Below are positions 9,317 to 23,325 of a stretch of DNA of 47,587 bases, in pieces. The notes beneath the pieces are model-generated. The model did no database searches, was not told where the DNA came from, and saw only the letters and a list, made by a program, of their open reading frames with translations. The stretch comes from Alphaproteobacteria bacterium (GTDB lineage: Bacteria; Pseudomonadota; Alphaproteobacteria; Sphingomonadales; Sphingomonadaceae): the NCBI GenBank assembly GCA_018819685.1, contig JAHJPT010000267.1, forward strand, positions 1 to 47,587. Direction: 5' to 3'. The position numbers and the translations under genes were made by a program. Every line of letters starts with the position of its first letter. Within the stretch, counting starts at the first letter, position 1.

Positions 9317-10042
9317 TCAGTCCCGAGCCGCCGCCGCGATCGTCAGACTCAGCTTGTCCAACGCTGCGGATTTGAGTTGATGCACGCGCGGCACGCTGAC
9401 TTCCAGAACCGCTGCGATCTCGGTCAGATTGAGCTCTTCGACGAAGTGGAGCTTTATCACCAACTGCAACCGGTCTGGCAGTGCAGCGATCGCATCCGCC
9501 AGGCCGGCGCGATCCTCGATCTGCAGCAGACTCGCTTCGGCATCCGGATCTTCGGATCGGAAGGCGGGATCGCTGTCGGAATAGCAATCCTCGATCGAGC
9601 TCATCGATATGTACAACTGGCGGCGAATATCGTGCAGTTCGTCGGTCGAAATGTGAACCGCACTCGCGAGCTCGGCCGTAGAGGGTTCGCGCCCGAGTTC
9701 GCTGCGCAAGCTGTCGGTCGCCCGCTCCAGCTTGCGTCGCATCTGCAACGCCCCGCGCGTGTGATGCGATTGCGAGCGCAGCAGGTCGATCATCGCCCCC
9801 CGCACGCGCATCTTGGCATAGGCGGCAAAGCCGTCGTCGCTTGGCCGATCATGGCGCTGGGCGCATTCGGTGAGCGCGATCAGCCCGGATTGCATCAGAT
9901 CGTCGACGTCGATCGAGCCGCTGCAGCTGCCGCCATAATACCATGCCAGCTTGCGCACCATGGGCAGGAATTGCGCAACCCGGTCGTCGATTCCGCTGGC
10001 ATAGGCGCGGCGCGCGTTGAAGTTCGAGTGGTCGTGTTTCAT
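9317..10042 (-). CDS. fliA: RNA polymerase sigma factor FliA (sigma-28)
   Basis: A 241-residue sigma-70-family factor with regions 2, 3 and 4 and no region 1. Region 2 is seen around SIDVDDLMQSGLIALTEC and FAAYAKMRVRGAMIDLLRS. Region 3 has ELGREPSTAELASAV. Region 4 ends with LTEIAAVLEVSVPRVHQLKSAAL. FliA directs late flagellar and chemotaxis transcription and is held inactive by FlgM, which is encoded in the same operon. Its ATG overlaps the flhA stop by four bases, so it is the distal gene of that operon. It converges on the response-regulator gene over 64 bases in which no strong terminator is visible. Confidence 0.95.
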   Translation of the reverse strand: MKHDHSNFNARRAYASGIDDRVAQFLPMVRKLAWYYGGSCSGSIDVDDLMQSGLIALTECAQRHDRPSDDGFAAYAKMRVRGAMIDLLRSQSHHTRGALQMRRKLERATDSLRSELGREPSTAELASAVHISTDELHDIRRQLYISMSSIEDCYSDSDPAFRSEDPDAEASLLQIEDRAGLADAIAALPDRLQLVIKLHFVEELNLTEIAAVLEVSVPRVHQLKSAALDKLSLTIAAAARD

Positions 10043-12141
10043 GCCGCGAGAGCCTCCGTGTCATGGCCAAGTGCCGCGGGTTCTTCATGGGTTTCGCCGC
10101 CCACCACCGCGATCACCTCGATCGGCTGCGTGGGAGGCAATTCGGTGATGGAGAGCACCGTGCAGCCCGGCGCGCGCATCTTGAGCAACGCGGCGAGCGC
10201 CCGGCGCGCGCGCGGCTGGACGATCAGCGCGGGCTGGGTGGAGCCCGGCTCGCGTGCGCCCACGATGGCGGCGATGCGTTCGCCGATCGAGCGGCCGAGA
10301 TCGGGTTCGATGATGAGTTCGCCGCTGGCGGGATCCTGCATTCCGTTCACGACCATCTCCTCGAGCTGCGCCGCCAGGGTGATCACCGGCAGTTTGGTGT
10401 CGGGGGAACAGGTTTCGCCCAGCAGCATGGCGCCCAGATCGGCGCGGATGATATCGATCAGGCGATCGTGCTCGCCAGTCTGCTGAGCGGCCAGCGAGAG
10501 GCTGGAGAAGATCGGCAGGGCATGGCGCAGCGAGATGCCGTCGGCGAGCAGCGCTTTGAGCACACGCGTCACCGCGGCGAGCGAGAGCGGCTGGGGCGTG
10601 ATCGTCTCGATCAGTTGACCATGGCGGCCGCGCAGGTGATCGACGAGATCGCGAACCTGATCCGGCCCGAGCAGATCCTGCGCGCGGGTCGCGATCAGCT
10701 GGTGGAGCTGGGTGGCGATCACGCTTTCGGGATCGACCACGAGATAGCCTTCGGCGACCGCGAGATCGCGCGAGCCCGGATCGATCCACAGGGCGGGGCA
10801 GCCGAAGCTGGGATCGACCGTGGCCTCGCCCGGCACCGCATGCGCCTGCATCACCTCGCCGGTGTCGATTGCCAGAAGCGAATCCGGTTTGAGCCTGCCG
10901 CTGCCGATCGGGCTGCCGCCCAGCGTGATGCGGTAGCCGTCGGGGTCGATCTCGAATGTGTCTTCGATCCGGAACGGTGGGATCACGAAGCCGAAGGCCT
11001 GGCACATCTGGCGCCGCAAGCCGGTCAGCCGCGCAATCAGCGTCGCGCCGTGGCGTTCGTCGGTCAGATGGATCAGGCCATAGCCTAGCTGAATGGTGAC
11101 CAGCGTCTGATCGGTGACGTCGTCGATCGAGATTTTGGAAGGATCGGGCGCAGCAACGGGTTCGACGAAGTTCTCCACCGCCTCGCGCCGGGTCTTGAGC
11201 GTGCGCCAGAGCAGGAAGGCGCCCGCGGCGAGCGGCAGGAAGATCGCCTGCGGCATCGCCGGAATGCAGCCGATCGCAAACAGAATGCAGGCGACCGGCA
11301 GCCAGATTTTGGGATCGGCAAGCTGACCGCCGATCTGTCCGGTGAGGTCGCGGGTATCCGATACGCGGGTGACGATCACCGCCGCGGCGATCGAGAGCAG
11401 CAGCGCCGGCACCGAGGCGACCAGCGCGTCGCCGATCGCCAGTGTGATGTAGTGCTGGCCTGCCTCGGCGATCGACAGACCGTGCGTGGTCATGCCGAGC
11501 ACCAGCCCGGCGATGATGTTGATGAACAGGATCAGCAGCGCCGCGACGGCGTCGCCCTTCACGAACTTGCTGGCGCCGTCCATCGAGCCGTAGAAATCGG
11601 CCTCGGTGGCGATCTCGCGGCGCCGCGCCTTGGCTTCGTCGGCGGTGAGCAACCCGGCGGCGAGATCGGCGTCGATCGCCATCTGCTTGCCTGGCAGTGC
11701 ATCGAGGGTGAAGCGCGCAGAGACCTCGGACACGCGGCCCGCGCCCTTGGTGACCACCATCAGATTGATGATCATCAGGATCAGGAAGACGAAGATGCCG
11801 ACGGTGAAATTGCCCCCGATCAGGAAGGCGCCGAAAGCCTCGATCACCATCCCTGCGGCGGCTTCGCCCTCGTGGCCGTTCATCAGCACGATCCGCGTCG
11901 AAGCGACGTTGAGCGCAAGCCGCAGCAGCGTGGCGAACAGCAGGACTGAGGGGAAGGACGAGAAATCGAGCGGCTTCTGCGCGTTCATCGCCGCCATCAG
12001 CACAGAAACCGAGAGCGCGATGTTGAGCACGAAGAACAGGTCGAGCAGGATCACCGGGATCGGCATGACCATCAGCAGGATGATCGTGAGGATGCCGATC
12101 GGCAGCGCGAGGGCGGGGCTGAAGATCTGTCGTGCGTTCAC
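10039..12141 (-). CDS. flhA: Flagellar type III export apparatus protein FlhA
   Basis: A 700-residue protein of standard length. About eight N-terminal membrane helices are interrupted by the FHIPEP-family cytoplasmic loop (KGAGRVSEVSARFTLDALPG, then KQMAIDADLAAGLL, about residues 130-165). A large cytoplasmic domain follows that forms the nonameric docking ring for chaperone-cargo complexes. FlhA couples proton flow to export. Translation starts at GTG 12141, overlapping the transglycosylase stop, and ends within the fliA start. The position, away from flhB and next to fliA, resembles other sphingomonad layouts from memory. Confidence 0.97.
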   Translation of the reverse strand: MNARQIFSPALALPIGILTIILLMVMPIPVILLDLFFVLNIALSVSVLMAAMNAQKPLDFSSFPSVLLFATLLRLALNVASTRIVLMNGHEGEAAAGMVIEAFGAFLIGGNFTVGIFVFLILMIINLMVVTKGAGRVSEVSARFTLDALPGKQMAIDADLAAGLLTADEAKARRREIATEADFYGSMDGASKFVKGDAVAALLILFINIIAGLVLGMTTHGLSIAEAGQHYITLAIGDALVASVPALLLSIAAAVIVTRVSDTRDLTGQIGGQLADPKIWLPVACILFAIGCIPAMPQAIFLPLAAGAFLLWRTLKTRREAVENFVEPVAAPDPSKISIDDVTDQTLVTIQLGYGLIHLTDERHGATLIARLTGLRRQMCQAFGFVIPPFRIEDTFEIDPDGYRITLGGSPIGSGRLKPDSLLAIDTGEVMQAHAVPGEATVDPSFGCPALWIDPGSRDLAVAEGYLVVDPESVIATQLHQLIATRAQDLLGPDQVRDLVDHLRGRHGQLIETITPQPLSLAAVTRVLKALLADGISLRHALPIFSSLSLAAQQTGEHDRLIDIIRADLGAMLLGETCSPDTKLPVITLAAQLEEMVVNGMQDPASGELIIEPDLGRSIGERIAAIVGAREPGSTQPALIVQPRARRALAALLKMRAPGCTVLSITELPPTQPIEVIAVVGGETHEEPAALGHDTEALAA

Positions 12142-12992
12142 AGGCCGAATGCTTTCAATTTGCCATAGGCGGTGGCGATGGTCTCACTCGCGCGCCGGCC
12201 CATCGGGGCGCCCGCGCCGCCGAAGGTGGATTTGAGTGTGTCGGACATCGAAGGCCGCGATGCGGCGGTCGGAAGCGGGTGGGATGAGATCGTCGAACCC
12301 GAAAAGTCGTGCTGGGCGAAATTACGCTGCGCGGCAAAAGCGGCGAAGCGTTTGGGAGCGCCGCTCGCCCCAGCAGGCATCGCGCCGTCGCCATAGGCCG
12401 AGGCGACCTTGTCGCGCATCACGCTCATGACCTCGCCGAGCGATCTCGCACGGCCGCCCTCATAGAAGATAGGACGGTTGGCGAGCGCGGCCTGCGGCAT
12501 CATCGCCGCCGCCGAGCGCCCGGGATCGGCGCCCAATGCGCCGAGGAATTGTTGCGCTCCGCCAAGCCCGAGGAAGTGCGCGAGATAGAGTTCGGCGGGC
12601 TCGGGTTCGCGGCCCAGCGACAGGCGCAGTCCGTCGGCGTTCTCGCGGGTGAGCTCGGCGGCCATCAGCGAAGAGGCGTCCGCATCGTAGCGCAGCGACA
12701 TGACTCGCGCGCGAGTGGCGGGATCGGCGATCCCTCCGCCGGGGCCGATGGCCTGGTCGGCCCATTCCATCCCGTGTTTAGAGCCATGGCGATCGACCAT
12801 GCGCATCCAGGTGGAATCGATGAATTGATAGAGCCCGGTGGCGCTGGAGGTCCCCGCCTTGGCACGCGGGTCGAGACCCGATTCCAGCTTCGCCTGCGCC
12901 AGCAGATAATCGAAATCGACCCCCGTGCGCAGCGAAGCGCGCGCGATTGCGGCCTTGACCTCGGTGTTCTGGACGGGATTGACGGTGGGCAC
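12138..12992 (-). CDS. Rod-associated lytic transglycosylase (SLT domain; separate muramidase partner of FlgJ)
   Basis: A 284-residue protein whose N-terminal half is a lytic transglycosylase domain. LAQAKLESGLDPRAKAG supplies the catalytic Glu (E37), followed by SATGLYQFIDSTW and a YLAHFLGLGGAQQFL segment near residues 135-149. It would cut peptidoglycan so the rod can pass. No signal peptide is apparent, consistent with export by the flagellar apparatus itself, as reported for SltF-type enzymes. The C-terminal 120 residues are low complexity. The start is GTG 12992 with GGAGG at 12997-13001; that site is partly inside a hairpin. The separate gene complements the muramidase-less flgJ at 20760. 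Confidence 0.87.
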   Translation of the reverse strand: MPTVNPVQNTEVKAAIARASLRTGVDFDYLLAQAKLESGLDPRAKAGTSSATGLYQFIDSTWMRMVDRHGSKHGMEWADQAIGPGGGIADPATRARVMSLRYDADASSLMAAELTRENADGLRLSLGREPEPAELYLAHFLGLGGAQQFLGALGADPGRSAAAMMPQAALANRPIFYEGGRARSLGEVMSVMRDKVASAYGDGAMPAGASGAPKRFAAFAAQRNFAQHDFSGSTISSHPLPTAASRPSMSDTLKSTFGGAGAPMGRRASETIATAYGKLKAFGL

Positions 12993-12996
12993 GAAA

Positions 12997-13019
12997 CCTC
13001 CGGGAATTGCCTTCCCGGA
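12997..13019 (-). promoter_or_regulatory. Hairpin overlapping the ribosome binding site of the transglycosylase gene
   Basis: A perfect 8-bp inverted repeat (12999-13006 and 13012-13019, five-base loop) lies seven bases upstream of the GTG start at 12992. On the transcribed strand its 3' arm contains the first bases of the GGAGG Shine-Dalgarno (12997-13001). The RNA could therefore hide the ribosome binding site. Alternatively it is a weak attenuator after flgN; there is no U-tract. Confidence 0.5.
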
Positions 13020-13071
13020 TGTTCAGCAAGCTTTGTGCCAAACCCGCAGCGCGGGTCAGGCCGTTCTGCCG

Positions 13072-13407
13072 TCAGGCGAGCGCAACGCCTCCGCTGCGGC
13101 GCGGCAGCGCGGTGTAGGCATCGCCGGTTTGGGTCAGCGTGCCCAGGCGGTTCTGGACGTTGGAGGCGATCAGGTTGCGCAGGCGGCGGTTGACCTCGTT
13201 GAGCCGTCGGACCGCGTCGAGTGCGCCGAGGCATTCCTCGTCGAGCTGCGAGCGCTCGACCGCCTCGAGTTTCGCGCACAGGTCGAGCTTGCCGGCAGTG
13301 GACTGAACGATCGCGTCGAGGTCGAGGGCGGCAAGCGCCTGCCGTTCGCCTTCGAGCAGGGCAACCATTTGCCGCAGGGTGGCAAGCGGACTGGAGGTAG
13401 GGGTCAT
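13072..13407 (-). CDS. flgN: FlgN-like export chaperone
   Basis: A 111-residue helical protein with a long amphipathic first helix (LRQMVALLEGERQALAALD, about 11-29) and further heptads through LNEVNRRLRNLIASNVQNRLG near residues 69-89, the pattern of FlgN chaperones. FlgN holds the hook-filament junction proteins FlgK and FlgL in the cytoplasm and delivers them to FlhA. Sequence conservation in this family is low; the assignment is supported by the four-base overlap with flgM upstream, the classical flgM-flgN pairing. Confidence 0.8.
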   Translation of the reverse strand: MTPTSSPLATLRQMVALLEGERQALAALDLDAIVQSTAGKLDLCAKLEAVERSQLDEECLGALDAVRRLNEVNRRLRNLIASNVQNRLGTLTQTGDAYTALPRRSGGVALA

Positions 13408-13688
13408 TGGCCGATCGTCCCATAGAGGCCGGCCGCGATGATCGCGTCGGCGATTTCGGTGGGAATGAGGGGATAACGGTCGTTGGCAAGCGCTTCGCGG
13501 ATTGCGGCGACGCGCTCGTGATCGACGCCGCTCTCACCAGCTGTGACCCGAGCGGTAGAGACCGGAGGTTCGGACTCACGCGTCTCGGCAGCGGCCTTGT
13601 GCGAGGCGGATATCCGCTGCGCCGGTGCGACGGTCGCGCTCGCGCGCTGCACCGCTCCTGCAATTTCCGGCAATCCGACAATACGCAT
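13404..13688 (-). CDS. flgM: Anti-sigma-28 factor FlgM
   Basis: A 94-residue protein with a disordered Ala/Ser/Thr-rich N-terminal half and a conserved C-terminal sigma-binding region (VAAIREALANDRYPLIPTEIADAII, about residues 58-83). FlgM binds FliA until the hook is complete, then is exported through the flagellum. It sits downstream of flgA across an 80-base gap that carries an inverted repeat and a weak FliA-like promoter, so it may have its own promoter. The ATG at 13688 is the only reasonable start. Confidence 0.88.
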   Translation of the reverse strand: MRIVGLPEIAGAVQRASATVAPAQRISASHKAAAETRESEPPVSTARVTAGESGVDHERVAAIREALANDRYPLIPTEIADAIIAAGLYGTIGQ

Positions 13689-13768: not shown

Positions 13769-14281
13769 CTATGGCAATTGGATGCCGACCTGGCCGGGGC
13801 GGATCACCATTGCGCGCAGCGTATCCGAACGCTTGCCGTCGGCGCGCACCTGGATCCATTCGCCCTGCGCGCCGTCTTCCACGGCTTCGCCCTGGCGGGT
13901 GAGGGTGAAGCCGTGACCGCGCACTAGAATGCTGACGGATTCCCCGCGGCGCACCAGCATCTCGGCCGGCGCTTGTGTCTCGCGCGACTGGCTTACGGGA
14001 CCGCCATCGACCGCGACATAGATCTTCCAGCCCGCGCTGGGGCAGGCGACCTGAACCGAGCGCTGATCACGCCCGAACCACGAAAGGTCGAGCGGGGTTG
14101 AGCAGGAGGAGAGCTTGAGGCGCCGATCGACGGGCAGGCGGGCGCCGCCGGGCTGGCCGATCTGCGAACCGGTGAAATCCACGACTGCGCGGTCGATCAT
14201 GCCGAGATCGGTCGTCGCTGCGACCGCTGCGGTGGCAAATGCGGCGGAGCCGATCAGTCCGAGAACAACAAGCTGGCGCAT
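13769..14281 (-). CDS. flgA: Flagellar P-ring assembly chaperone FlgA
   Basis: A 170-residue periplasmic protein: Sec signal peptide at residues 1-22 (cleavage after AAVAA), a short N-terminal part and a C-terminal SAF-like domain with PAEMLVRRGESVSILVRGHGFTL and a DTLRAMVIRPGQVGIQLP ending. FlgA helps FlgI polymerise into the P-ring. The ATG at 14281 gives a clean signal peptide and has AAGGA upstream; the longer open frame lacks any reason to be used. The first strand region before the SAF domain is short relative to E. coli FlgA (about 219), as in many alphaproteobacteria. Confidence 0.9.
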   Translation of the reverse strand: MRQLVVLGLIGSAAFATAAVAATTDLGMIDRAVVDFTGSQIGQPGGARLPVDRRLKLSSCSTPLDLSWFGRDQRSVQVACPSAGWKIYVAVDGGPVSQSRETQAPAEMLVRRGESVSILVRGHGFTLTRQGEAVEDGAQGEWIQVRADGKRSDTLRAMVIRPGQVGIQLP

Positions 14282-14306: not shown

Positions 14307-14738
14307 TCAACGTTTCTCAGCAAGCATCGTGCCACTCTCCGGATTGCCCTCATAGCCGATCGCCACCAGGGTTTCGGCCCTTGTGCCGGGCTCGAGTACG
14401 AGCCGAGCGGTCGAGCCCTTCGACTCGATCTGCTCGAGCAATGCGGACCCGTCGCGGAATGCGGCGTCGCGTTGGCCACTGGGATACCGGACGACCACGC
14501 TTGCGCCCTGCCGGTCGTCGGTCATCGTCATATCGAGCCACTGGCTCAGGTTCGTCTCGGGGTCGGGGCGAAACACCGCCAGCCCCACGCCGCTGCTGTC
14601 CGAAATGGCTGTCGCGACTGGCTCCACCTGCTGCGGCACAGCCGGAGTATCGCGGCTGGCCTGCGCGGTGACGAGGAACAGGATCAGAGCGAGATCCGCA
14701 GTAACGGTCTGCCAGCCGGAACCGGCGCGCAGGATCAT
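14307..14738 (-). CDS. Minimal MotB/ExbD-like single-helix membrane protein (partner of the adjacent MotA-like protein)
   Basis: Not recognised as a named family. The 143-residue protein has nine cytoplasmic residues, then one short hydrophobic helix containing an acidic residue (TVTADLALILFLVTAQ, Asp15), the same arrangement as the proton-binding Asp of MotB, ExbD and TolR. The remaining 115 residues would be periplasmic; they contain a strand-helix-strand stretch (ASVVVRYPSGQ, then SALLEQIE, then TARLVLEPG) but no visible OmpA-type peptidoglycan-binding motif. Its ATG (14738) overlaps the stop of the MotA/ExbB-like gene, indicating coupled 1:1 expression, and flgA follows 25 bases later. 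Role inferred: ion-conducting half of a stator-like or TolQR/ExbBD-like unit. Confidence 0.7.
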   Translation of the reverse strand: MILRAGSGWQTVTADLALILFLVTAQASRDTPAVPQQVEPVATAISDSSGVGLAVFRPDPETNLSQWLDMTMTDDRQGASVVVRYPSGQRDAAFRDGSALLEQIESKGSTARLVLEPGTRAETLVAIGYEGNPESGTMLAEKR

Positions 14739-15391
14739 GCCGCCACCTGCGGAGCGTTCTCGACCGGCGCAGCGCTGCCGGCATTGCGCACACCTTCGGC
14801 GAGCCATTCGAGAACCGCGTCGCGGTCGCGCTCCTCCTGCCGCGAGCGGCGGGCAATTGCGGTCGCGATAGGCGCGAACAGGAAATTGGCGGCCAGCAGC
14901 CCATAGAGCGTGGTGACGACGGCGATCGCGACCGCATCGACGAGGCTTTCGCCTTGCTGGGTTGCGCCCGGGGCCTGTCCCAGCGCGAACAGTGTGCCGG
15001 CGAGGCCGAGCACCGGGGCGAGCTCGGCCGCGCTTTCGAAAGTTCGCGCCGCGCGCTGCGCTTTGTCGAGCCGCTGTTGCTTAAACCGCCGATGCGCCCC
15101 GTGGATCGATTCGATCGACCGCTGCCCAATCATGATGTCGGTGATGCTGTCGAATTCGACATCGCCGAAATGATGCGGCTCGGCGCGAAAAAAGCCGTCG
15201 TCGGCGATCTCGCGGATCTGTTTCGACAGTTCGGCCTTGGCTTTTGCGACATCGAAGGCGGGCTCGAACGTGCCGCGCAGCGCAGCCAGCGTCACGCGCA
15301 TATCCGCGACGCCGCAGCGCAGCAGCGTCGCCGCGACGGTTCCTGCGAATACGATGGCGATCGCGACGGGATCGATCCAGTTTTCCAGCAT
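14735..15391 (-). CDS. MotA/TolQ/ExbB-family proton channel subunit in the flagellar operon
   Basis: A 218-residue protein with three predicted membrane segments (about 8-24, 121-140 and 151-178), the TolQ/ExbB count rather than MotA's four. The second and third segments nevertheless read like MotA TM3-TM4: FESAAELAPVLGLAGTLFALGQ with the channel Pro126, then VAIAVVTTLYGLLAANFLFAPIA, followed by an EWLAEGVRNAG segment like MotA's ILEGI region. It is the first gene of the minus-strand operon leading to flgA, flgM, flhA and fliA, and is divergent from flgB. A normal motA-motB pair exists at 23354-25043, so this is an additional channel. GAGGAG precedes the ATG. Confidence 0.82.
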   Translation of the reverse strand: MLENWIDPVAIAIVFAGTVAATLLRCGVADMRVTLAALRGTFEPAFDVAKAKAELSKQIREIADDGFFRAEPHHFGDVEFDSITDIMIGQRSIESIHGAHRRFKQQRLDKAQRAARTFESAAELAPVLGLAGTLFALGQAPGATQQGESLVDAVAIAVVTTLYGLLAANFLFAPIATAIARRSRQEERDRDAVLEWLAEGVRNAGSAAPVENAPQVAA

Positions 15392-15459
15392 GGGTTGCGC
15401 TACTCCTCGGATCGCAGAACGGCCGGGTGGGAGGCGTGTTTACCCCCGTGGAAGAACTT

Positions 15460-15496
15460 TGCCGCCCACCGGCAGAAGCTTGCCGCAAATTGCCGC
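15460..15496. promoter_or_regulatory. Phased cluster of four CGGCA/TGCCG half-sites, probable flagellar activator binding region
   Basis: Half-sites start at 15460 (TGCCG), 15470 (CGGCA), 15481 (TGCCG) and 15491 (TGCCG), that is 10, 11 and 10 bases apart, about one helical turn each. The middle pair forms CGGCA-N6-TGCCG and the first pair TGCCG-N5-CGGCA. The cluster ends about 30 bases upstream of the sigma-54 promoter of flgB. The layout suggests an enhancer for an NtrC-type regulator; it is reminiscent of the Caulobacter ftr elements bound by FlbD (recalled, not checked). Confidence 0.55.
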
Positions 15497-15526
15497 AACC
15501 GGTGCTTCCGACGAGCTTCAGCGAGT

Positions 15527-15543
15527 TTGGCACGCCACTTGCT
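15527..15543 (+). promoter_or_regulatory. Sigma-54 promoter of the flgB operon
   Basis: TTGGCACG, four bases, TTGCT matches the sigma-54 consensus (TGGCACG-N4-TTGC) at every conserved position, with the GG of the -24 element at 15529-15530 and the GC of the -12 element at 15541-15542, ten bases apart. Transcription would begin near 15554, leaving a short leader before the flgB ATG at 15577 and a GCGGAGG ribosome site. Confidence 0.88.
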
Positions 15544-15576
15544 AACCCGGTTCCGTAGTTTTTTGCGGAGGCTCAC

Positions 15577-15924
15577 ATGAGCAACGGTTTGTTCGGCATT
15601 CACGGTGCAGCGCTGGAGATCAGATCGCAGCGCATGGGTGTGCTCAGTTCGAATATCGCGAACGCCGCAACACCCAATTACAAGGCGCGCGACGTCGATT
15701 TCGCGGCGGCGCTCGAAGCGCGGCTGGGCGGGGTCGACAGCGAACGCGCCGCCGGTTCCGCCGCAAGCTATCGCATTCCCACCATGGCCAGCCTCGACGG
15801 CAACACCGTCGAGATGGCGACCGAGCAAGCCGCCTTCGCCGAGAATGCGGTCGCCTATTCGGCGACGCTCGGTTTCTTGCGCGGACGGGTCGAGACCCTC
15901 ACCCGCGCGATCAGGGGCGAATGA
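15577..15924 (+). CDS. flgB: Flagellar proximal rod protein FlgB
   Basis: A 115-residue rod protein with the family N-terminal helix (GAALEIRSQRMGVLSSNIANAATPNYKARDVDF, residues 9-41 by pattern) and the closing helix containing AYSATLGFLRGRVETL. FlgB starts the rod on the MS-ring. It is the first gene of the sigma-54-driven operon and overlaps flgC by four bases. Somewhat shorter than the 138 residues of Salmonella, mainly in the middle. Confidence 0.94.
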   Translation: MSNGLFGIHGAALEIRSQRMGVLSSNIANAATPNYKARDVDFAAALEARLGGVDSERAAGSAASYRIPTMASLDGNTVEMATEQAAFAENAVAYSATLGFLRGRVETLTRAIRGE

Positions 15925-16331
15925 GCATGGCTGGTCCGTCATCTCTGTTCGAAGTGGGGCACCGCGCCATGTCCGCACAGCTCGTGCGGATGAACACCGC
16001 GGCGTCCAACCTGGCCAATGCCGGTTCCGTCGCGGGCAGCGAGGAAGCCGCCTACCGCCCGATGCGCACCGTCTTCGCGCAGGAACTCGATCGCGCCAGC
16101 GGCCTGTCTTCGGTTCGCGTCGATGGTGTCGTGCGCGAGGATGTCGCCCCGATCCGCCGCCACGACCCCGGTCACCCGCTCGCCGATGAGAATGGCGACG
16201 TCTGGGAAAGTCCGGTCGATGAGAATGCCGAGATGGTCGAGATGCTCGAGGCCTCGCGCCAATATCGCAACATGGTCGAGGCGCTCTCGACCGCCAAGCA
16301 GCTGATGCTCGAAACGATGAGGATGAAATGA
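15921..16331 (+). CDS. flgC: Flagellar proximal rod protein FlgC
   Basis: A 136-residue rod protein. The N-terminus carries the rod/hook motif (LVRMNTAASNLANAGSVAG), followed by VREDVAPIRRHDPGHPLADENGDVW and the C-terminal helix MVEMLEASRQYRNMVEALSTAK, all characteristic of FlgC. The start overlaps the flgB stop and the stop overlaps flgD (ATGA), so the reading chain is continuous. Length is normal. Confidence 0.95.
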   Translation: MSMAGPSSLFEVGHRAMSAQLVRMNTAASNLANAGSVAGSEEAAYRPMRTVFAQELDRASGLSSVRVDGVVREDVAPIRRHDPGHPLADENGDVWESPVDENAEMVEMLEASRQYRNMVEALSTAKQLMLETMRMK

Positions 16332-16618
16332 TCACACCAGTCACCAATCAGCCGGCTGCCTCCGCAGCACCCGTCGCGGGGCGCGGGATGGACCAGCTGG
16401 GGCAGGGGGATTTCCTCCGTCTGCTTACCGTCCAGATGCAGCAGCAGGATCCGATGGATCCGGTCGATAACAAGGAGATGCTGGCGCAGATGGCGCAGTT
16501 CTCCTCGCTCGCAGGCGTCGCCGAGACCAATTCCATGCTCGAACGGATTTCGGACAAGCTCGATCAGTTGATCGGTGCGACCCAATCCGCCTCTGACCTT
16601 CGCAACGGAGAAAACTGA
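16328..16618 (+). CDS. flgD: Minimal hook-capping protein FlgD (N-terminal domain only)
   Basis: Only 96 residues. The N-terminal FlgD domain is clear: LGQGDFLRLLTVQMQQQDPMDP, then MLAQMAQFSSLAGVAETNSMLERI. The Tudor and fibronectin-like domains of usual FlgD proteins (about 220 residues) are absent. The gene is not a fragment by frameshift: its stop overlaps the flgE ATG at 16618 and no remnant follows. FlgD caps the growing hook and is lost on completion. The matching shortness of FlgE suggests the two have been reduced together. Confidence 0.9.
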   Translation: MITPVTNQPAASAAPVAGRGMDQLGQGDFLRLLTVQMQQQDPMDPVDNKEMLAQMAQFSSLAGVAETNSMLERISDKLDQLIGATQSASDLRNGEN

Positions 16619-17430
16619 TGTCCTTTTACACCTCGCTGAACGGCATGAAGAACGCGCAAACCTCGCTCGGGGTGATTGCGCATAACATCGCCAATTCAGA
16701 AACCTATGGCTTTAAGCGGAGTCGGGCCGAATTTTCCGAAATCGTAGCTGCATCAAGGCTGACCGATCCGCGCTTGGTCCAGGGGATCGGCTCCAGGGTT
16801 GCGGCGGTCAATCAGAACTTTGCGCTTGGCCCGGTAGAACAAACCGGTTCGGGGCTAGATCTTGCGCTCACCGGCGACGGATTCTTTACCATTCGCTCTC
16901 CTGGTGATGGTGCAACACTCTACACGCGCAAGGGATCCTTCACCCTTGCCGGTGATGGTTACATCGCGGACAGCAGTGGCAACCGCCTGCAGATGTTCCC
17001 AACTGATGCCAATGGAACGGTTACCTCAAACTCATTGATCGACGCAGTTATCCCTGCAATTAATGCGGCGGGCGCGGAATTCGCCGGTGTCATCGTCGCC
17101 AATGATGGTGTGGTCAACGTGTCCTTTGCCGATGGCTCGGTCGAGCCGATTGGGAGCGTCGCAGTCGCCGGCTTCTTCGCGCCGACCGGACTTAAGAGGG
17201 TCGGTTCGTCGAACTGGGAGAGTACCGGATTGTCGGGTGTGGCGAGCTACGGTTCGCCTGGCACCGGCCAGTATGGATCGCTGCTGTCGGGCGCGCTCGA
17301 GCGCTCGAACGTGGATATCGCCGAAGAGCTCGTCGGACTGATCACGGCGCAGCGCAATTTCCAGGCGAACGCCAAGGCGCTCGATACCGCCACCCAGATC
17401 TCGCAGACCGTCATCAACCTGCGGAGCTGA
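16618..17430 (+). CDS. flgE: Flagellar hook protein FlgE (short)
   Basis: A 270-residue protein with the hook N-terminus (MSFYTSLNGMKNAQTSLGVI, AHNIANSETYGFKRSRAEF) and the conserved C-terminal end (GALERSNVDIAEELVGLITAQRNFQANAKALDTATQI). It follows flgD and precedes flgF, so FlgE is the natural call although its length is closer to FlgF/FlgG; Salmonella FlgE has 402 residues. The outer D2 domain must be small or missing. The first 430 or so bases are visibly poorer in GC than the flanking genes (about 48% in 16981-17040 against 70% in 17581-17640 by hand count). Confidence 0.85.
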   Translation: MSFYTSLNGMKNAQTSLGVIAHNIANSETYGFKRSRAEFSEIVAASRLTDPRLVQGIGSRVAAVNQNFALGPVEQTGSGLDLALTGDGFFTIRSPGDGATLYTRKGSFTLAGDGYIADSSGNRLQMFPTDANGTVTSNSLIDAVIPAINAAGAEFAGVIVANDGVVNVSFADGSVEPIGSVAVAGFFAPTGLKRVGSSNWESTGLSGVASYGSPGTGQYGSLLSGALERSNVDIAEELVGLITAQRNFQANAKALDTATQISQTVINLRS

Positions 17431-17435
17431 TCCAG

Positions 17436-18176
17436 ATGGACCGCCTCATCCACACTGCGCTTTCGGGCATGCGGGCGTCGATGGACAGCCAGCGCGTCAT
17501 CGCGAGCAATATGGCCAATGCCAATACGCTCGGGTTTCGCGCCGAACTGGTCGATGCGCGCGCGGTCACCATCGAGGGTCTCTCCAACGAGGCGCGCGCG
17601 ATGCAGACCGTGCAGGTGCGCGGTGCGGATATGGAGGCGGGCGAGATGATTGACACCGGGCGATCGCTCGATCTCGCCATCGAGACCGAGGCGCTGATGG
17701 CGGTGCAGGCCGAAGACGGCACCGAAGCCTACACCAGGCGCGGCGATCTCTCGATCTCGGCGACCGGGCTGCTGGTCAACGGCGAGGGGCGTCCAGTGCT
17801 GGGCGACACCGGCCCGATCACCGTCCCGCCCACCGGCATCCCGGCGATTGCGCCCGACGGGACGATCACGATCACCGACCCCGCGGTGCCCGACCAGCCC
17901 CCGGCCGAGATCGGTCGGATCAAGCTGGCCGGCTGGCAGGGTTCGCCGATCCAGAAGGGTCTCGACGGCCTGTTCCGGGTCGAGGGCGGCGGCGTGCTGC
18001 CGCTCGATGAAACCGCCACCGTCAAAACCGGCGCGCTCGAGCAATCCAACGTCAGCACCACCGAAGTCCTGGTCGAGATGATCGATGCGCAGCGCCTGTT
18101 CGCGATGCGCAGCAAGATGATCGCGACCGCCCGTGAAATCGACGAAAGCGGCGCACAATTGATGCGCCTCGGCTAA
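17436..18176 (+). CDS. flgF: Flagellar proximal rod protein FlgF
   Basis: A 246-residue rod protein with MDRLIHTALSGMRASMDSQR, then VIASNMANANTLGFRAEL at the N-terminus and a C-terminal block GALEQSNVSTTEVLVEMIDAQRLFAMRSKM. The AYTRRGDLSISATGLL stretch around residue 95 is typical of FlgF. It forms part of the proximal rod between FlgC and FlgG. The gene begins five bases after flgE and is 21 bases from flgG, with an AGGAAAAGGA ribosome site between. Confidence 0.93.
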   Translation: MDRLIHTALSGMRASMDSQRVIASNMANANTLGFRAELVDARAVTIEGLSNEARAMQTVQVRGADMEAGEMIDTGRSLDLAIETEALMAVQAEDGTEAYTRRGDLSISATGLLVNGEGRPVLGDTGPITVPPTGIPAIAPDGTITITDPAVPDQPPAEIGRIKLAGWQGSPIQKGLDGLFRVEGGGVLPLDETATVKTGALEQSNVSTTEVLVEMIDAQRLFAMRSKMIATAREIDESGAQLMRLG

Positions 18177-18197
18177 TCCAGGAAAAGGATCCAGCAC

Positions 18198-18986
18198 ATG
18201 CCCACCTCAGCTCTCCAGGTCGCCCGGACCGGACTCGAAGCGCAGGACGCGCGGATGCGGGTCATCGCCAACAATCTCGCCAACGTCGGCACCACCGGCT
18301 TCAAGCGCGACCGCGCCAATTTCGCGACACTCGCCTATCAGGATGCTCGAGTGGCGGGGCAGCGTTCCTCGGGCGAAACCGCTTACGCCACCGGGCTCAA
18401 CCTGGGTACCGGCGTAGCGGTCCAGTCCACCAGCCAGATCATGACCCAAGGCGCGCTGGCGACGACCGGCAATGCCTTCGACCTCGCGCTCGATGCCGAT
18501 GGCTATTTCCAGATCGAGATGCCGGGCGGGCGCACAGCCTATACCCGTGCAGGCAATTTCACGGTTTCCGCCGAAGGACAGCTGGTCACCCAGCAGGGCT
18601 TCGCGGTGCAGCCGGCGATCACCGTGCCCGAAGGCGCGACCGCGATCACCGTCGCTCCCGACGGGACGGTATCGGCGACGCTGGCAGGGGAAGCCGAGCC
18701 GGCCGAACTCGGCCAGATCCAGGTCGCGCGCTTCACCAACCCTTCCGGCCTGCAGGCGATCGGCGACAACTTCCTGGTCGAGACCGCCGCGAGCGGCGCT
18801 GCCGAACTGGGCCCCGGCGGCGAGAATGGCCGCGGCAACATCCGCCAGGGAATGCTGGAATCCTCCAACGTCAACATCGTCGAGGAACTGGTATCGATGA
18901 TCGAAACCCAGCGCGCCTATGAAATCAGCTCCAAGATGGTTTCGGCCGTCGACGAGATGCTGCGCAACGCCAATCAGACGCTGTGA
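18198..18986 (+). CDS. flgG: Flagellar distal rod protein FlgG
   Basis: A 262-residue protein with all FlgG landmarks: TGLEAQDARMRVIANNLANVGTTGFKRDRANF near residues 10-41, TGVAVQSTSQIMTQGALATTGNAFDLAL around 75-100 and a C-terminal SNVNIVEELVSMIETQRAYEISSKMV segment. FlgG makes the distal rod that passes through the L- and P-rings. Length equals that of Salmonella FlgG (260). Its stop overlaps a possible early flgH start. Confidence 0.97.
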   Translation: MPTSALQVARTGLEAQDARMRVIANNLANVGTTGFKRDRANFATLAYQDARVAGQRSSGETAYATGLNLGTGVAVQSTSQIMTQGALATTGNAFDLALDADGYFQIEMPGGRTAYTRAGNFTVSAEGQLVTQQGFAVQPAITVPEGATAITVAPDGTVSATLAGEAEPAELGQIQVARFTNPSGLQAIGDNFLVETAASGAAELGPGGENGRGNIRQGMLESSNVNIVEELVSMIETQRAYEISSKMVSAVDEMLRNANQTL

Positions 18987-18997
18987 GGATGAACAGC

Positions 18998-19651
18998 ATG
19001 AAGTCTCTCGCGCTCGTCCTGCCTCTCGCTCTGATGTGCGGCGCTTGCGGCACCGGAGGCGCGCGACCCGCAGGGTTCGCGGCCGCGCTGCCGCCGCCGC
19101 CGCCGCCCTATCAGCCTCAGCCTGCGGATGGCGCCATCTTCCAGGTCAGCCAGGGCTATGCCCCGCTCTACTACGGCAACCGCGCCTCGCAGGTGGGGGA
19201 TCTGGTCACGGTGGTTCTGGTCGAGCGGACGCAGACCTCCAAATCGACCAGCGGCTCGACAGATCGCGAGGGCAATCTCGGATTGTCGCTGCCGCGCTTC
19301 GTCGGGATCGACGATGCCGACCTTAATGCTTCGGGCGGAGGGTCGTTCAATGGTTCGGGCAATGCAGCGCAGGCGAGTTCGATCCGAGCCGATCTCACCG
19401 TCACTATCGCCGAGGTCCGTCCCAACGGCACGGCCCTGATACGCGGAGAGAAGGTCATGCATTTGAGCCAGGGCGAGGAATGGGTCCAGCTGGCGGGAAT
19501 TATCCGGCTCGCCGATATCGATCAGGACAACCGCATCCTGTCGATCCGCGTCGCCGATGCGCGCATCTCCTACTCCGGCGCCGGTTCGATCCAGCGTGCG
19601 GGCCGCGAGGGGTGGCTGTCGCGCTTCTTCGGCGCGGTCTCTCCCTTCTGA
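18998..19651 (+). CDS. flgH: Flagellar L-ring protein FlgH
   Basis: A 217-residue outer-membrane ring lipoprotein. The N-terminal signal ends in a lipobox-like CGAC (Cys 16) rather than the usual Leu-x-x-Cys, so lipidation is plausible but not textbook. A six-proline run follows, then the FlgH core (YYGNRASQVGDLVTVVLVERTQTSKSTS, SIRADLTVTIAEVRPNGTALIRGEK, ISYSGAGSIQRAGREGWLSRFF). ATG 18998 is chosen because GAGGA sits eight bases upstream; GTG 18983 and ATG 18989 are in-frame alternatives. The L-ring is the outer bushing of the rod. Confidence 0.95.
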   Translation: MKSLALVLPLALMCGACGTGGARPAGFAAALPPPPPPYQPQPADGAIFQVSQGYAPLYYGNRASQVGDLVTVVLVERTQTSKSTSGSTDREGNLGLSLPRFVGIDDADLNASGGGSFNGSGNAAQASSIRADLTVTIAEVRPNGTALIRGEKVMHLSQGEEWVQLAGIIRLADIDQDNRILSIRVADARISYSGAGSIQRAGREGWLSRFFGAVSPF

Positions 19652-19662
19652 GGAATGCCATC

Positions 19663-20760
19663 ATGATCCGCCGCCTCGCTCTTCTCCTCGTCGCGCTGCT
19701 CGCGCTGCTGCCGCTTCCGGCCGCGGCCGAGCGGGTGCGCGATCTCGGCCAGTTCCAGTCGGTCCGTTCCAACCAGCTGACCGGCTATGGCATCGTCGTC
19801 GGTCTCGACGGATCGGGCGACGACAATTTCGCCTATCTGACGCAGGCCATGCGCGGTGTCTCGGGGCGGCTCGGCCTGCAGCTGGCGCCGGGCGTGAATC
19901 CGGCGCTCAAGAACGCAGCCGCCGTCATCATCACCGCCGAACTTCCGGCTTTCGCCAAGCCCGGGCAGCGCATTCCTGTCACCGTCTCGACCATGGGCAA
20001 GGCCAAGTCGCTGCGTGGTGGCGCGCTGGTGCTCACACCGCTCTACGGCGCCGACGGGCAGATCTATGCCATGGCGCAGGGCAATCTGGCCGTGGGCGGG
20101 CTCGGCGTCTCGGGCAAGGACGGCTCGAAGCTGACGGTCAACGTGCCGACAGTGGGCCGGATCGCCGATGGCGCGACCGTCGAACAGGCGGTGGCTAGCA
20201 ATTTCGACTTTTCCGAGGTGCTGCGCTGGAACCTCTACCGCGCCGATTTCCTCACCATCTCGCGGGTTCGCGACGCGATCAACGCCTTCTATCCGGGCAT
20301 GGCCCAGATCGAGGACGGGGTGACCCTCGCGCTGTTCCTGCCCCCTGGGGCCAATTCGCGCGCCGAAATCATGGCACGGATCGAGATGCTCGATATTCAG
20401 CCTGCGGAGCGCGCGGCCAAGGTTGTTGTCAACAGCCGTACCGGGACGATCGTAATCTCAAGCGCGGTCCGTCTCTCCCCGGCGGCGATCAGCCACGGAA
20501 GCCTGGTGGTGCGGATCGACGAGGACCCGCTCGTGGTCCAGCCCGCACCATTCGCCAACGGTCGTACGGCAATCGAACCCGATAGCACGATCAGCGCCAG
20601 CCAGATGGATAGCGTCGTCACGCAGGTCGGCCCTGCGGCTTCGCTCGCCGAGGTGGTCGATGCACTGAACGCGCTGGGTGCGAGCCCGGCGGACTTGGTG
20701 GCCATCCTCGAGGCCCTCAAGCAGGCAGGTTCGCTCAACGCGGAGCTGGAGATCATCTGA
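19663..20760 (+). CDS. flgI: Flagellar P-ring protein FlgI
   Basis: A 365-residue periplasmic protein. A signal peptide (residues 1-21, ending PAAAE) leads into RVRDLGQFQSVRSNQLTGYGIVVGLDGSGDD, the classical FlgI start. Later motifs include TVSTMGKAKSLRGGALVLTPLYGADGQIYAMAQG and KVVVNSRTGTIVIS, and the end LVAILEALKQAGSLNAELEII. FlgI polymerises around the rod in the peptidoglycan layer with help from FlgA (13769-14281). ATG 19663 follows a TGAGGA ribosome site; the longer upstream frame lies within flgH. Confidence 0.97.
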   Translation: MIRRLALLLVALLALLPLPAAAERVRDLGQFQSVRSNQLTGYGIVVGLDGSGDDNFAYLTQAMRGVSGRLGLQLAPGVNPALKNAAAVIITAELPAFAKPGQRIPVTVSTMGKAKSLRGGALVLTPLYGADGQIYAMAQGNLAVGGLGVSGKDGSKLTVNVPTVGRIADGATVEQAVASNFDFSEVLRWNLYRADFLTISRVRDAINAFYPGMAQIEDGVTLALFLPPGANSRAEIMARIEMLDIQPAERAAKVVVNSRTGTIVISSAVRLSPAAISHGSLVVRIDEDPLVVQPAPFANGRTAIEPDSTISASQMDSVVTQVGPAASLAEVVDALNALGASPADLVAILEALKQAGSLNAELEII

Positions 20761-21077
20761 TGGTCGCTTCCATTCCTATCGGCGGGCCCTCGGGTGCCGT
20801 CGCGCCAGACAAGCCGAATGGTAAGGTGGACCCGGCCCGCGCCGAGTTGCGCGAAACGGCGCAGCAGTTCGAAGCGATCTTGCTACGCCAGATGCTCGCC
20901 AGCGCCCGCAATGTCGATTTCGGCGGCAATGATCTGTTCGGCGGCGAAAGCGACAAGACTTTCCACGAGATGCGCGACGCGCAATTCGCCGAGATCACCG
21001 CGAAATCCGGCCAGTTCGGCTTTGCTGCGGCGATCGAGCAGCAACTCGAGCGGTTCCTGCCGCAGGGTAGCGACTGA
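20760..21077 (+). CDS. flgJ: Rod-binding protein FlgJ (N-terminal domain only)
   Basis: A 105-residue protein corresponding to the FlgJ rod-scaffolding domain: LRETAQQFEAILLRQMLASAR near residues 30-50 and GGESDKTFHEMRDAQFAEITAKSGQFGFA near 61-90. The C-terminal muramidase domain of enterobacterial FlgJ is missing; a separate transglycosylase is encoded at 12138-12992. The ATG overlaps the flgI stop and the stop overlaps flgK. This split form is common in alphaproteobacteria. Confidence 0.92.
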   Translation: MVASIPIGGPSGAVAPDKPNGKVDPARAELRETAQQFEAILLRQMLASARNVDFGGNDLFGGESDKTFHEMRDAQFAEITAKSGQFGFAAAIEQQLERFLPQGSD

Positions 21078-22417
21078 TGGCTTCCGATCTCCTTTCGATC
21101 GCGGCGAGCGGCGCACGGGCGGCGCGCGGAGCGCTCGATGTCACAGCACAGAACATCGCCAATGCCTCGAGCGACGGCTACGTGCGGCGCAGCCTCAGGA
21201 TCGCGGAGGTCGCCGCTTCGGGCGGCGCCGGGCGACAGGCCGATATCTCGCTGTCGGGGGCGCGGATTGCGGAGATCCGGCGCAATGCCGATCCGTTCCT
21301 GCAAGGCGAAGTGCGCCGGACGAATGGCGATCTCCAGCGGGCGAACACCGAATTGTCGGGTCTGCGCAACATCGAGAGCGCGATCGAACAATCGGGCATT
21401 TTTACCTCGATCGTGGAATTCGAGGCTTCTTTACAGCAGCTTGCGGGCGATCCCTCGGACCCGTCGAGACGCGCGGCAGTGCTAGCCGAAGCGAATACGA
21501 TGGCAAGCAAGTTCGAGATCACTGCAGCCGGACTCGACTCCGTTGGCGCGGGTCTTCGCTTCGATGCCGATGCGCAACTTAGCGAAGCCAATATTATCGG
21601 CAGCGAACTGGCGCGGGTTAACCTGCGGCTGGCGCGCGCCGGCAGCGGCAGCAGCGATCGCGCGGCGCTGCTCGATCAGCGCGATCAGCTGCTCGAGCGC
21701 CTGGCCGGGTTCAGCGCGGTCACGACCTCTTTCGCCAGCGACGGCACCGTGGCGGTCTCTTTGGGTTCGATGCCGGCGCGCAGCTTCGTGCAGGGAGGGT
21801 CCTCGGGGGTGCTTTCGTCCGCGCAAGCCGCCGACGGAACCTTGAGCTTCGCGGTCGACGGCCTGGCGACCAATCCGGGTTCCGGCAGCCTGGCCGGCGC
21901 CGGGCTGGCGCTCACCTCGCTGGCAGCTACACGCGAGCGGTTGGATGCGATGGCGAACCGCCTGGCCGATGCGGTCAATGCCGCGCAGGCTGCGGGTGTC
22001 GGCCTGGACGGAGCGCCGGGGCAGCCGATGTTCTCGGGAACCGGCGCGGGCGATCTGAAAGTCGTGCTCGCCAGCGGACAGGGGATCGCCACCGCACCGG
22101 CAGGAGCCGCGGCGGGCAGCCGCGATACGCAAAACCTCGCCAATCTGCGCCAGGCGCTGACGATCGAGAACCCGGCGCAAAAGCTCAGCAGCCTGTTGTT
22201 CGATGTATCCAGCACCGTCGCGGGGCGGAATGTGACGCAAAGCGCGCTCGAGACGATCGCTTCATCGGCGCGGGTCTCGCTCGAACAGCAATCGAGCGTC
22301 AACCTCGACAACGAAGCCACCAATTTGATCCGTTTTCAGCAGGCCTTCCAGGCTTCGGGCCGGGCGATGCAGGTGGCGAGCGATATTTTCGATACTCTTC
22401 TGGGGATCGGGCGATGA
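21077..22417 (+). CDS. flgK: Flagellar hook-filament junction protein FlgK
   Basis: A 446-residue junction protein. The N-terminus (SGARAARGALDVTAQNIANASSDGYVRRS) and the C-terminus (VNLDNEATNLIRFQQAFQASGRAMQVASDIFDTLLGI) are the conserved rod/hook/HAP coiled-coil ends. The middle contains the FlgK helix segment (QLAGDPSDPSRRAAVLAEANTMASKFE). FlgK joins hook to filament. It is shorter than the 553 residues in Salmonella but within range for alphaproteobacteria. Both ends overlap neighbouring genes. Confidence 0.95.
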   Translation: MASDLLSIAASGARAARGALDVTAQNIANASSDGYVRRSLRIAEVAASGGAGRQADISLSGARIAEIRRNADPFLQGEVRRTNGDLQRANTELSGLRNIESAIEQSGIFTSIVEFEASLQQLAGDPSDPSRRAAVLAEANTMASKFEITAAGLDSVGAGLRFDADAQLSEANIIGSELARVNLRLARAGSGSSDRAALLDQRDQLLERLAGFSAVTTSFASDGTVAVSLGSMPARSFVQGGSSGVLSSAQAADGTLSFAVDGLATNPGSGSLAGAGLALTSLAATRERLDAMANRLADAVNAAQAAGVGLDGAPGQPMFSGTGAGDLKVVLASGQGIATAPAGAAAGSRDTQNLANLRQALTIENPAQKLSSLLFDVSSTVAGRNVTQSALETIASSARVSLEQQSSVNLDNEATNLIRFQQAFQASGRAMQVASDIFDTLLGIGR

Positions 22418-23325
22418 TCAACCTGAGCACGGGTGCCTTCTTTGAACGCAGCACGCAGCAGATCGGGGTGCTGCGTTCGCGCGCCGAGACGCTGCAACAG
22501 CAGATCGGGACGGGCAACCGGATCGAGCGGTCTTCCGACGATCCCGTCGCGGCGGCGCGGCTGCGGATGCTGGCGCGCAGCGAGCGCATCGCCGCGGTCG
22601 ATACGCGCAGTTCGCAATTGGCCGAGGCGGATCTCGCGCTGACCGATCAGTCGCTGGGTTCGATCGCCGATCTGGTGATCCGCGCGCGCGAACTGGCGGT
22701 GCAAGGCACCGCGCCGACGCTGAGCGATGCGCAGCGCGAAGCGATCGGCATCGAGATGAAGGGGCTACGAGAAAATCTGGTCATGCTGGCCAACAGCCGG
22801 AACATCGCCGGCCATGCCCTGCTCGGCGGCCAGGCCACCGGTGCAGCCTATGTCGATGACGGCACGATTGCGCAGTTCGTCGGTACCGCTGCGGTGGACC
22901 CGCTCGAGATCGGCGAGGGCCAGTCGGTGGTTCCAGGGCTGACCGGTCCCGAGGTCTTCGAGTTCGCAACAGCGGGCGGCCCGACAGACCTGTTCAGCGT
23001 GCTCGGCAACCTGGCCGCGGCGCTCACGACCGGGGGCGATGCCGCGACGCAGGCGAGTTCGGACGCCCTGTCAGGCTTCGACACCGGGCTGGAAAAGGTC
23101 ACCACCGCGCAGACCGTGATCGGCGCGCGGCTCAACTGGGTCGATCTGATGACCGAGCGGCGCGAAAACAATTCCGAGCGGGCCGCCGAAGAGCGCGCCG
23201 ATGTCGGCGGCGCCGATATCGCCACCACCATGAGCCGTCTCCAAGAGACGCTCACCGTGCTCGAAGCGACCCAGGCCAGCTTCGTCCGTCTCGCCAATCT
23301 GTCCCTGTTCTCGATGTTGCGCTGA
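22414..23325 (+). CDS. flgL: Flagellar hook-filament junction protein FlgL
   Basis: A 303-residue flagellin-related protein with an N-terminal coiled coil (LRSRAETLQQQIGTGNRIERSSDDPVAAARL) resembling flagellin's GxRIxxAxDDPA motif, and a C-terminal helix ending LEATQASFVRLANLSLFSMLR. FlgL is the second junction protein between hook and filament. Overlap with flgK (ATGA) and position before motA support it. True flagellin is excluded by gene context and the divergent C-terminus. Confidence 0.93.
   Translation: MINLSTGAFFERSTQQIGVLRSRAETLQQQIGTGNRIERSSDDPVAAARLRMLARSERIAAVDTRSSQLAEADLALTDQSLGSIADLVIRARELAVQGTAPTLSDAQREAIGIEMKGLRENLVMLANSRNIAGHALLGGQATGAAYVDDGTIAQFVGTAAVDPLEIGEGQSVVPGLTGPEVFEFATAGGPTDLFSVLGNLAAALTTGGDAATQASSDALSGFDTGLEKVTTAQTVIGARLNWVDLMTERRENNSERAAEERADVGGADIATTMSRLQETLTVLEATQASFVRLANLSLFSMLR

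Follow-up and report, generated by a model that had tools for sequence, protein, structure and literature searches.

Why does a flagellar gene cluster with a complete motA-motB pair carry a second, smaller pair of motor-like genes? The question is raised by two ORFs, X1 and X2, in a stretch of 47,587 nucleotides (the window), which is contig C252 of a draft genome of 2.33 Mb (363 contigs, 79.7% complete, 5.3% contaminated). As this genome is a draft and incomplete, the absence of a gene from it means little. Both ORFs are present on the minus strand, as claimed in the preliminary description of this DNA. X1 (14735-15391) encodes 218 amino acids and X2 (14307-14738) encodes 143, and according to the ORF coordinates the stop of the former and the start of the latter overlap by 4 bases (ATGA, 14735-14738). 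X1 is a MotA/PomA-type A subunit without the first transmembrane helix (TM1), and X2 is a B subunit composed of one membrane helix (residues 8-28), a linker and a compact domain (54-129).

The pair is placed between flgB and flgA. Read 5' to 3', the minus-strand run consists of X1, X2, flgA (13769-14281, directly 3' of X2, start taken from the ORF; P-ring chaperone, Pfam ChapFlgA 42.1 bits) and the remaining co-directional flagellar genes flgM, flgN, an SLT transglycosylase-like gene, flhA and fliA (9317-13688), FlgN scoring under its own cut-off. On the plus strand, flgB to flgL (15577-23325, named from ORF translations without a family search) diverge from X1 and are followed by canonical motA (23354-24217) and motB (24219-25043). 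The former is of the E. coli type (TIGR03818, 324.7 bits, cut-off 303.8) and the latter matched both the MotB_plug and the OmpA domain profiles. A full motA-motB pair thus lies 8 kb from X1-X2, as had been stated, and it served as a within-genome control.

The family was delimited by scanning named genome contigs with an X1 alignment, which gave 153 confirmed loci; the best 80 were kept, and the pattern is typical of the window's clade. Core X1 comprises L064-L143 plus L161 (n = 81, the window's own X1 being outside this count), including L101, in which X1 is split, and L073, in which its start is mis-set. Core X2 (n = 79) excludes L125, whose membrane helix is cut short. The X2 alignment (A3) contains the window and 71 of these 79 sequences (n = 72), and the X1 alignment (A4) contains the window and 59 of 80 X1. 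Kept outside the family counts were L162 (a chance X2 match without X1), L163 (X1 without X2) and the PomA-type controls L154 and L157-L160. The truncated X2 membrane helix of L125 (7032 onward) and the X1 of L101 and G030, matched in two pieces, are either assembly errors or broken copies.

Among the best 80 of the 153 loci, a strict check found flgB on one strand followed by X1, X2 and flgA on the other in 80/80. Homologues regularly placed away from flagellar genes, which by the preliminary description would have refuted its reading, were therefore not the outcome in these loci. This arrangement occurs in Erythrobacter, Qipengyuania, Citromicrobium, Pelagerythrobacter, Croceibacterium, Novosphingobium and other genera. 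The 4-base overlap recurs in 75 of the 79 core loci in which X2 was found (80 fetched). Canonical motA lies within the fetched stretch in 65 of the 80 loci, and in the remaining 15 the motA side is less than 7.5 kb long.

Beyond these loci, X2 was matched in 49 of 296 genomes of the order, in 47 of them beside an X1 match in a by-eye comparison; the X2 matches without X1, in G157 and G243 (E 0.006 and 0.008), are chance-like. Across the class, 4 of 367 genomes matched the X2 profile, all of them in the window's family. In the family sample, 132 genomes had a FlhA match and 96 an X1-profile match (E<=1e-8), all 96 within the 132, and in the window's genus X1 was found in 9/9 genomes with FlhA and in 0/15 without it. 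The 36 FlhA-positive family genomes without an X1 match at E<=1e-8 do not amount to 36 absences: G239 carries X1 (L176), the contig of G249 begins at flgA (L179), and several of the FlhA belong to other systems. Nevertheless, direct reading of loci L164, L166, L167, L168, L169 and L174 showed flgA directly beside flgB and X1 absent. As the pair is absent from some flagellated relatives, its function must be dispensable there. When the X1 profile was run on other families of the order, the five loci read held four-helix PomA types beside flhA and not X1.

A FlhA tree built by a quick method joins the lineages with a short X2 and one X1-only lineage in a single group (100), and pair-less lineages are scattered over several places, so that X1-X2 was probably lost more than once. 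The branch leading to the short-X2 clade is long (0.89), and much of this flagellum may have changed together. In L163 (G175), X1 stands alone with a degraded-looking channel motif and flgA directly next to it, the picture of a lineage losing the pair. We also considered X1-X2 as the stator of a second flagellum and rejected it, as 34 of 35 genomes have a single FliG ORF (none was matched in G145); extra FlhA matches do occur, for example in G169 and G260. A replacement of X1-X2 by flagellar H-ring genes was likewise rejected as a rule, LPP20/FlgP being found in 1/45 genomes. This one genome, G262 (L177 8279-9738), represents a genus in which LPP20/FlgP-like and FlgT_N-like genes fill the slot between flgB and flgA in place of X1-X2.

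From which family of ion-driven motors does the pair descend? The family profile check suggested earlier was passed by X1 (Pfam MotA_ExbB, 47 bits against a cut-off of 22.9). When the X1 family profile was compared with the PDB, PomA was found with an E value of 1.7e-22, ExbB with 0.28 and TolQ with 0.87. The match to PomA begins at residue 25-29, and the profile alignment runs along PomA 29-220 without long gaps. This is in agreement with the three membrane helices reported at first for X1, which starts at the second helix of MotA/PomA. A cryptic TM1 upstream of the window's X1 was rejected, since the open frame adds only 16 codons (234 instead of 218 amino acids); fewer than 22 open codons lie upstream of X1 in 39 of 79 core loci.

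The model of X1 (pLDDT 84; helices 8-26, 28-41, 48-65, 78-90, 94-138 and 148-206) superimposes on PomA with a Z score of 19.0 (rmsd 2.7 over 192 residues) and on other flagellar MotA with Z 15-17, whereas on TolQ/ExbB Z is at most 10.7 and the rmsd near 5. The expanded cytoplasmic domain is kept (model helices 28-41, 48-65 and 78-90). A tree of 57 sequences puts all X1 into a single clade (98/99) beside Aquifex aeolicus MotA (88/70) and PomA (86/76), with the four deep X1 of genus g2 as the sister group of core X1 (91/78). The window's canonical motA sits on a separate long branch; this tree includes every fourth core locus, few outside references and one TolQ/ExbB outgroup on a long branch, and its bootstrap had not fully settled. 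Sequence, fold and tree thus identify X1 as a PomA-type flagellar stator A subunit minus TM1, and they rule out membership by descent in ExbBD/TolQR. The separate branches also rule out X1 as a recent duplicate of the window's motA. The preliminary description had pictured a flagellum-linked, ion-driven pair that does not bind peptidoglycan, with ring or rod assembly, export or an alternative stator as its candidate roles; a pair of this kind fits the data. The label ExbB/ExbD-like, as applied to X1, gave way to a place among the PomA-type stators.

X2 proved to be the more reduced of the two proteins. In its model (pLDDT 83), a loose linker joins a helix (8-28) to a confidently predicted b-a-b-a-b-b domain (54-129). 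The ORF translation confirmed Asp15 in the context TADLALILFLV, and this residue is invariant in the X2 alignment together with W9, W67 and R112 (72/72 each), followed by D74 (69/72), R76 (68/72) and P117 (66/72). The window's X2 has no Pfam or NCBIfam match at E<=1, and hence no match to an OmpA-type domain, as had been noted. Neither the OmpA nor the MotB_plug profile matched any of the 72 core X2, a result that a diverged plug could escape. The same genes at the same place in 15 genomes from other genera of the family (deep X2) are 145-218 amino acids long, and at E<=1 they match OmpA in 14/15, MotB_plug in 11/15 and the MotD family in 14/15 cases. X2 had been called ExbD-like; this did not hold, since the ExbD/TolR profile (PF02472) matched only 1 of the 72 core X2 (E 0.28), and the place of X2 and these intermediates tie it to MotB-OmpA proteins. 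A profile-profile comparison of core and deep X2 gave an alignment that covers the helix and reaches into the beginning of the domain (probability 68, E 4.7e-5), a moderate link, the case for orthology otherwise resting on synteny and the X1 tree. Overall, X2 is a shrunken MotB, and stages of its reduction are found across genera of the family.

The nearest fold to X2 was the periplasmic domain of SiiA, which superimposes over 76 residues with an rmsd of 2.7 and a Z score of 8.3 (Foldseek E 4.6e-3). Z was 6-7.4 for other OmpA-like domains and 6.9 for Helicobacter MotB; all of these Z scores lie near the level at which chance matches arise. By title, 15 of the 20 top structural rows are SiiA, OmpA, Pal, MotB or other peptidoglycan-binding domains; below the OmpA-like rows, the listed neighbours include unrelated folds (fatty-acid-kinase proteins, FtsZ) with Z 5-6. 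ExbD/TolR is absent among the 50 structural neighbours listed, which excludes nothing, and comparison of the X2 profile with the PDB by sequence gave no credible relative. Weak CpaD matches were seen in 4/72 X2 (best E 0.0003). Judged by the model of the window's X2, core X2 appears to keep a miniature OmpA-like fold.

The wall-binding motif consists of the D of GHTD and the R of LSxxR, the contacts to diaminopimelate. The motif is present in 64/64 canonical MotB (the window and 63 loci), and among deep X2 the R is found in 15/15 and the D in 9/15. We looked for a conserved counterpart of this D/R pair in core X2 and found none. Wall binding therefore seems to have been lost in X2, a view taken from these residues and not from the fold, as the SiiA domain to which X2 is nearest is itself titled peptidoglycan-binding.

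Compared with L064, dN/dS was 0.151 for X1, 0.292 for X2, 0.057 for motA and 0.064 for motB. L066 is more distant, its synonymous sites being almost saturated, and gave 0.242, 0.601, 0.099 and 0.201, respectively. X2 had the highest ratio among 15 genes in both comparisons. The ratios for X1 and X2 and the overlap kept in 75 of the 79 core loci show that the pair is beyond chance.

The preliminary description had placed X1-X2 at the head of an operon leading to flgA. The common direction of these genes was borne out; the need for X1-X2 to head them was not, since flgA has a conserved sigma-54-like site of its own. This site (TGGCACGATGCTTGC, 14320-14334, minus strand) falls inside X2 at its 3' end, some 39 nt ahead of flgA, and, together with the site of the divergent flgB operon (15528-15542, plus strand), is the only sigma-54-type promoter-like sequence in the window with 0 mismatches; sites with up to 2 mismatches are no commoner in the window than in shuffles. 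A flgA-side site with at least 10/11 bases, lying within the end of X2 or next to it, occurs in 71/80 core and 9/15 deep loci, compared to 0.4% of shuffles. The flgB-side site has 11/11 bases in 71/79 core loci and 10/11 in 4/79. A sigma-54 promoter on the X1 side was also sought in the core loci, where nothing exceeded the shuffles. As far as promoter-like sequences tell, flgA and the genes downstream can probably be transcribed independently of X1-X2. At 13026-13040 (minus strand), just 5' of the transglycosylase and flhA genes, there is a third site of the sigma-54 type, which has one mismatch, and the flgB-X1 intergenic region (15392-15576) holds repeated conserved GGCAA-type elements, perhaps activator sites.

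Which parts of a stator, then, have been kept in X1? In PomA numbering, the channel equivalents P151, T158, T186 and P199 are each present in 81/81 core X1, D31 in 76/81 and T185 in 75/81. The rotor side is different. PMC10374538 gives R88, K89, R232, D114 and E96 of PomA as the charges facing FliG. Core X1 has R88 in 31/81, K89 in 11/81, E96 in 31/81 and D114 in 0/81; Arg occupies the K89 place in 26 more, so that Arg and Lys together account for 37/81. Among R88, K89, E96 and D114, the window's X1 keeps only E96. The five four-helix PomA types from related families retain R88 in 5/5, K89 in 3/5, E96 in 4/5 and D114 in 5/5, and canonical MotA (the window and 65 loci) has Lys/Arg and Glu at two contact positions in 66/66. 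Deep X1 (n = 15) are intermediate, with D in 9 and N in 6 at the D114 place and an acidic residue in 15/15 at the E96 place. Since the cytoplasmic domain has kept its length and part of its charge, X1 may still make some contact with the rotor.

The descent of X1-X2 from a stator, its synteny, its pattern of residues and the predicted folds of the monomers are established by these results. They fit a dedicated ion-driven pair with a target other than peptidoglycan, as channel residues are kept, FliG- and wall-contacting residues are unconserved and the flagellar synteny is strict. On balance, we therefore hypothesize that X1-X2 is an ion-driven transducer of stator descent, similar in use to ExbBD, TolQR and SiiAB, that acts on a periplasmic partner in the flagellum; we hold this reading with modest confidence. 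Its assembly, ion, partner and task are inferred. X1-X2 would be a reduced and repurposed paralogue of a PomAB/MotCD-type stator. By homology to the solved 5:2 motors, two X2 would probably be ringed by five X1, and the X1 ring would probably be turned by ion flow past Asp15 of X2, as proposed for those motors. Canonical MotAB would drive rotation and X1-X2 would serve as the energy transducer of the flagellum. Indeed, MotAB keeps the tested rotor and wall contacts and X1-X2 conserves neither, which makes work on a periplasmic partner the most likely task. With the wall motif gone from X2 and the FliG charges unconserved in X1, the periplasmic domain of X2 (W67, R112, D74, R76, P117) most probably acts by holding or moving a flagellar protein of the periplasm. 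FlgA is the constant neighbor of the pair; this adjacency is weak evidence for FlgA as the partner, and weaker still because flgA seems to have its own promoter.

A fuller history can be proposed more tentatively. A PomAB-type motor of the flagellar locus may have lost TM1, its grip on the rotor and its wall anchor stepwise, with the steps visible in living genera, and may have become a second ion-driven machine of the basal body. Such a machine, perhaps powered by sodium while protons power MotAB, would work in the periplasm at a task other than the turning of the filament.

The best-surviving rival is that X1-X2 remained a torque generator, namely, an alternative or auxiliary stator of the same flagellum, possibly sodium driven beside the proton-type MotAB and anchored to a protein rather than to the wall. 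PomAB beside MotAB occurs elsewhere, the X1 clade lies within the flagellar PomA-type stators, and the deep relatives combine OmpA and MotB_plug matches with the acidic E96 place in 15/15. Furthermore, T158, T185 and T186 belong to the sodium site according to PMC10374538, which describes them as a triad conserved in all sodium-driven stators, with alanine replacing T158 and T185 in the proton stators compared. The triad is kept in 81, 75 and 81 of 81 core X1, and in the canonical MotA of the window the first two of these places are Ala and Gly. However, the first Thr also occurs in a TolQ/ExbB-type protein of the same genome (GLLGTV), so that it is no proof of sodium. In addition, core X1 has no D114 at all and varies at the other three FliG-contact residues, TM1 is missing, and the wall-binding motif is unconserved. 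We therefore regard torque generation as less likely than a transducer role.

Considerably less probable is a role as ion channel or leak in which the pair does no mechanical work and senses or sets the ion motive force for the assembly of the flagellum or the recruitment of stators. Conservation of the channel residues ranks among the highest in the family, and SiiAB is discussed as sensing or using the proton motive force in PMC6272769; but an A-subunit fold with its cytoplasmic helices and a folded X2 domain with invariant residues exceed what a leak needs. Finally, a decaying duplicate stator of no present function, as the fast evolution of X2, its lost domains, the X1 without X2 in L163 and the missing pair in some relatives might suggest, is hardly credible given dN/dS values of 0.15 and 0.29 against L064, residues invariant in 72 X2 and 81 X1, and an overlap kept in 75/79 loci.

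Our literature search brought up no paper that we recognized as describing the X1-X2 pair. PMC12505986 divides these motors into flagellar stators, which have shared traits, and non-flagellar transporters, which are without them. X1-X2 is a flagellar stator by descent and location and yet has lost several stator traits, with intermediates in related genera. If X1-X2 is a transducer, the flagella of this family carry a second powered device, and which non-rotary step of the flagellum uses the ion motive force becomes a question that can be asked directly. If it is a stator, neither the known FliG charges nor a wall-binding domain would seem to be required for torque.

How does the pair compare with known systems? 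Flagellar stators (FIT group) are described in PMC12505986 as having four helices in the membrane domain and an expanded cytoplasmic domain, together with a plug and a domain of the OmpA type. The four-helix "square fold" is not present in X1, which has three helices and misses TM1 of PomA. PomAB/MotCD, assigned there to the class TGI4 (PMC12505986), resemble X1-X2 in sequence, fold, tree position, ion-site residues, A-then-B gene order and flagellar locus; unlike them, X1 is without TM1 and conserved FliG charges, and X2 matches neither the plug nor the OmpA profile and does not have the wall-binding motif. In Salmonella, SiiAB is an accessory MotAB-like pair that serves a type I secretion system rather than a rotor (PMC6272769). 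It is thus a MotAB-like pair in non-torque use, and its SiiA periplasmic domain is the best fold match of X2. However, its locus and partner are different, the SiiA domain is titled peptidoglycan-binding, and the likeness observed is one of fold. With ExbBD/TolQR, the pair shares a three-helix A subunit, a short B subunit without an OmpA match and a predicted use as an envelope transducer, whereas X1 is nearer to PomA (Z 19.0 versus at most 10.7) and an ExbD match was seen in only 1 of 72 X2, at E 0.28. Unlike in ExbD/TolR, the X2 helix starts with W-x5-D, as does that of the window's canonical MotB. The canonical MotAB of the window is similar in being an A/B pair with an Asp in the B helix, but its MotA is of the E. 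coli type, on a separate long branch, and its tested rotor and wall contacts are intact. Common to X1-X2 and the 5:2 ion-driven motors are the Asp of the B helix, found in 72/72 X2, and the conserved channel residues of the A subunit, found in 81/81 X1.
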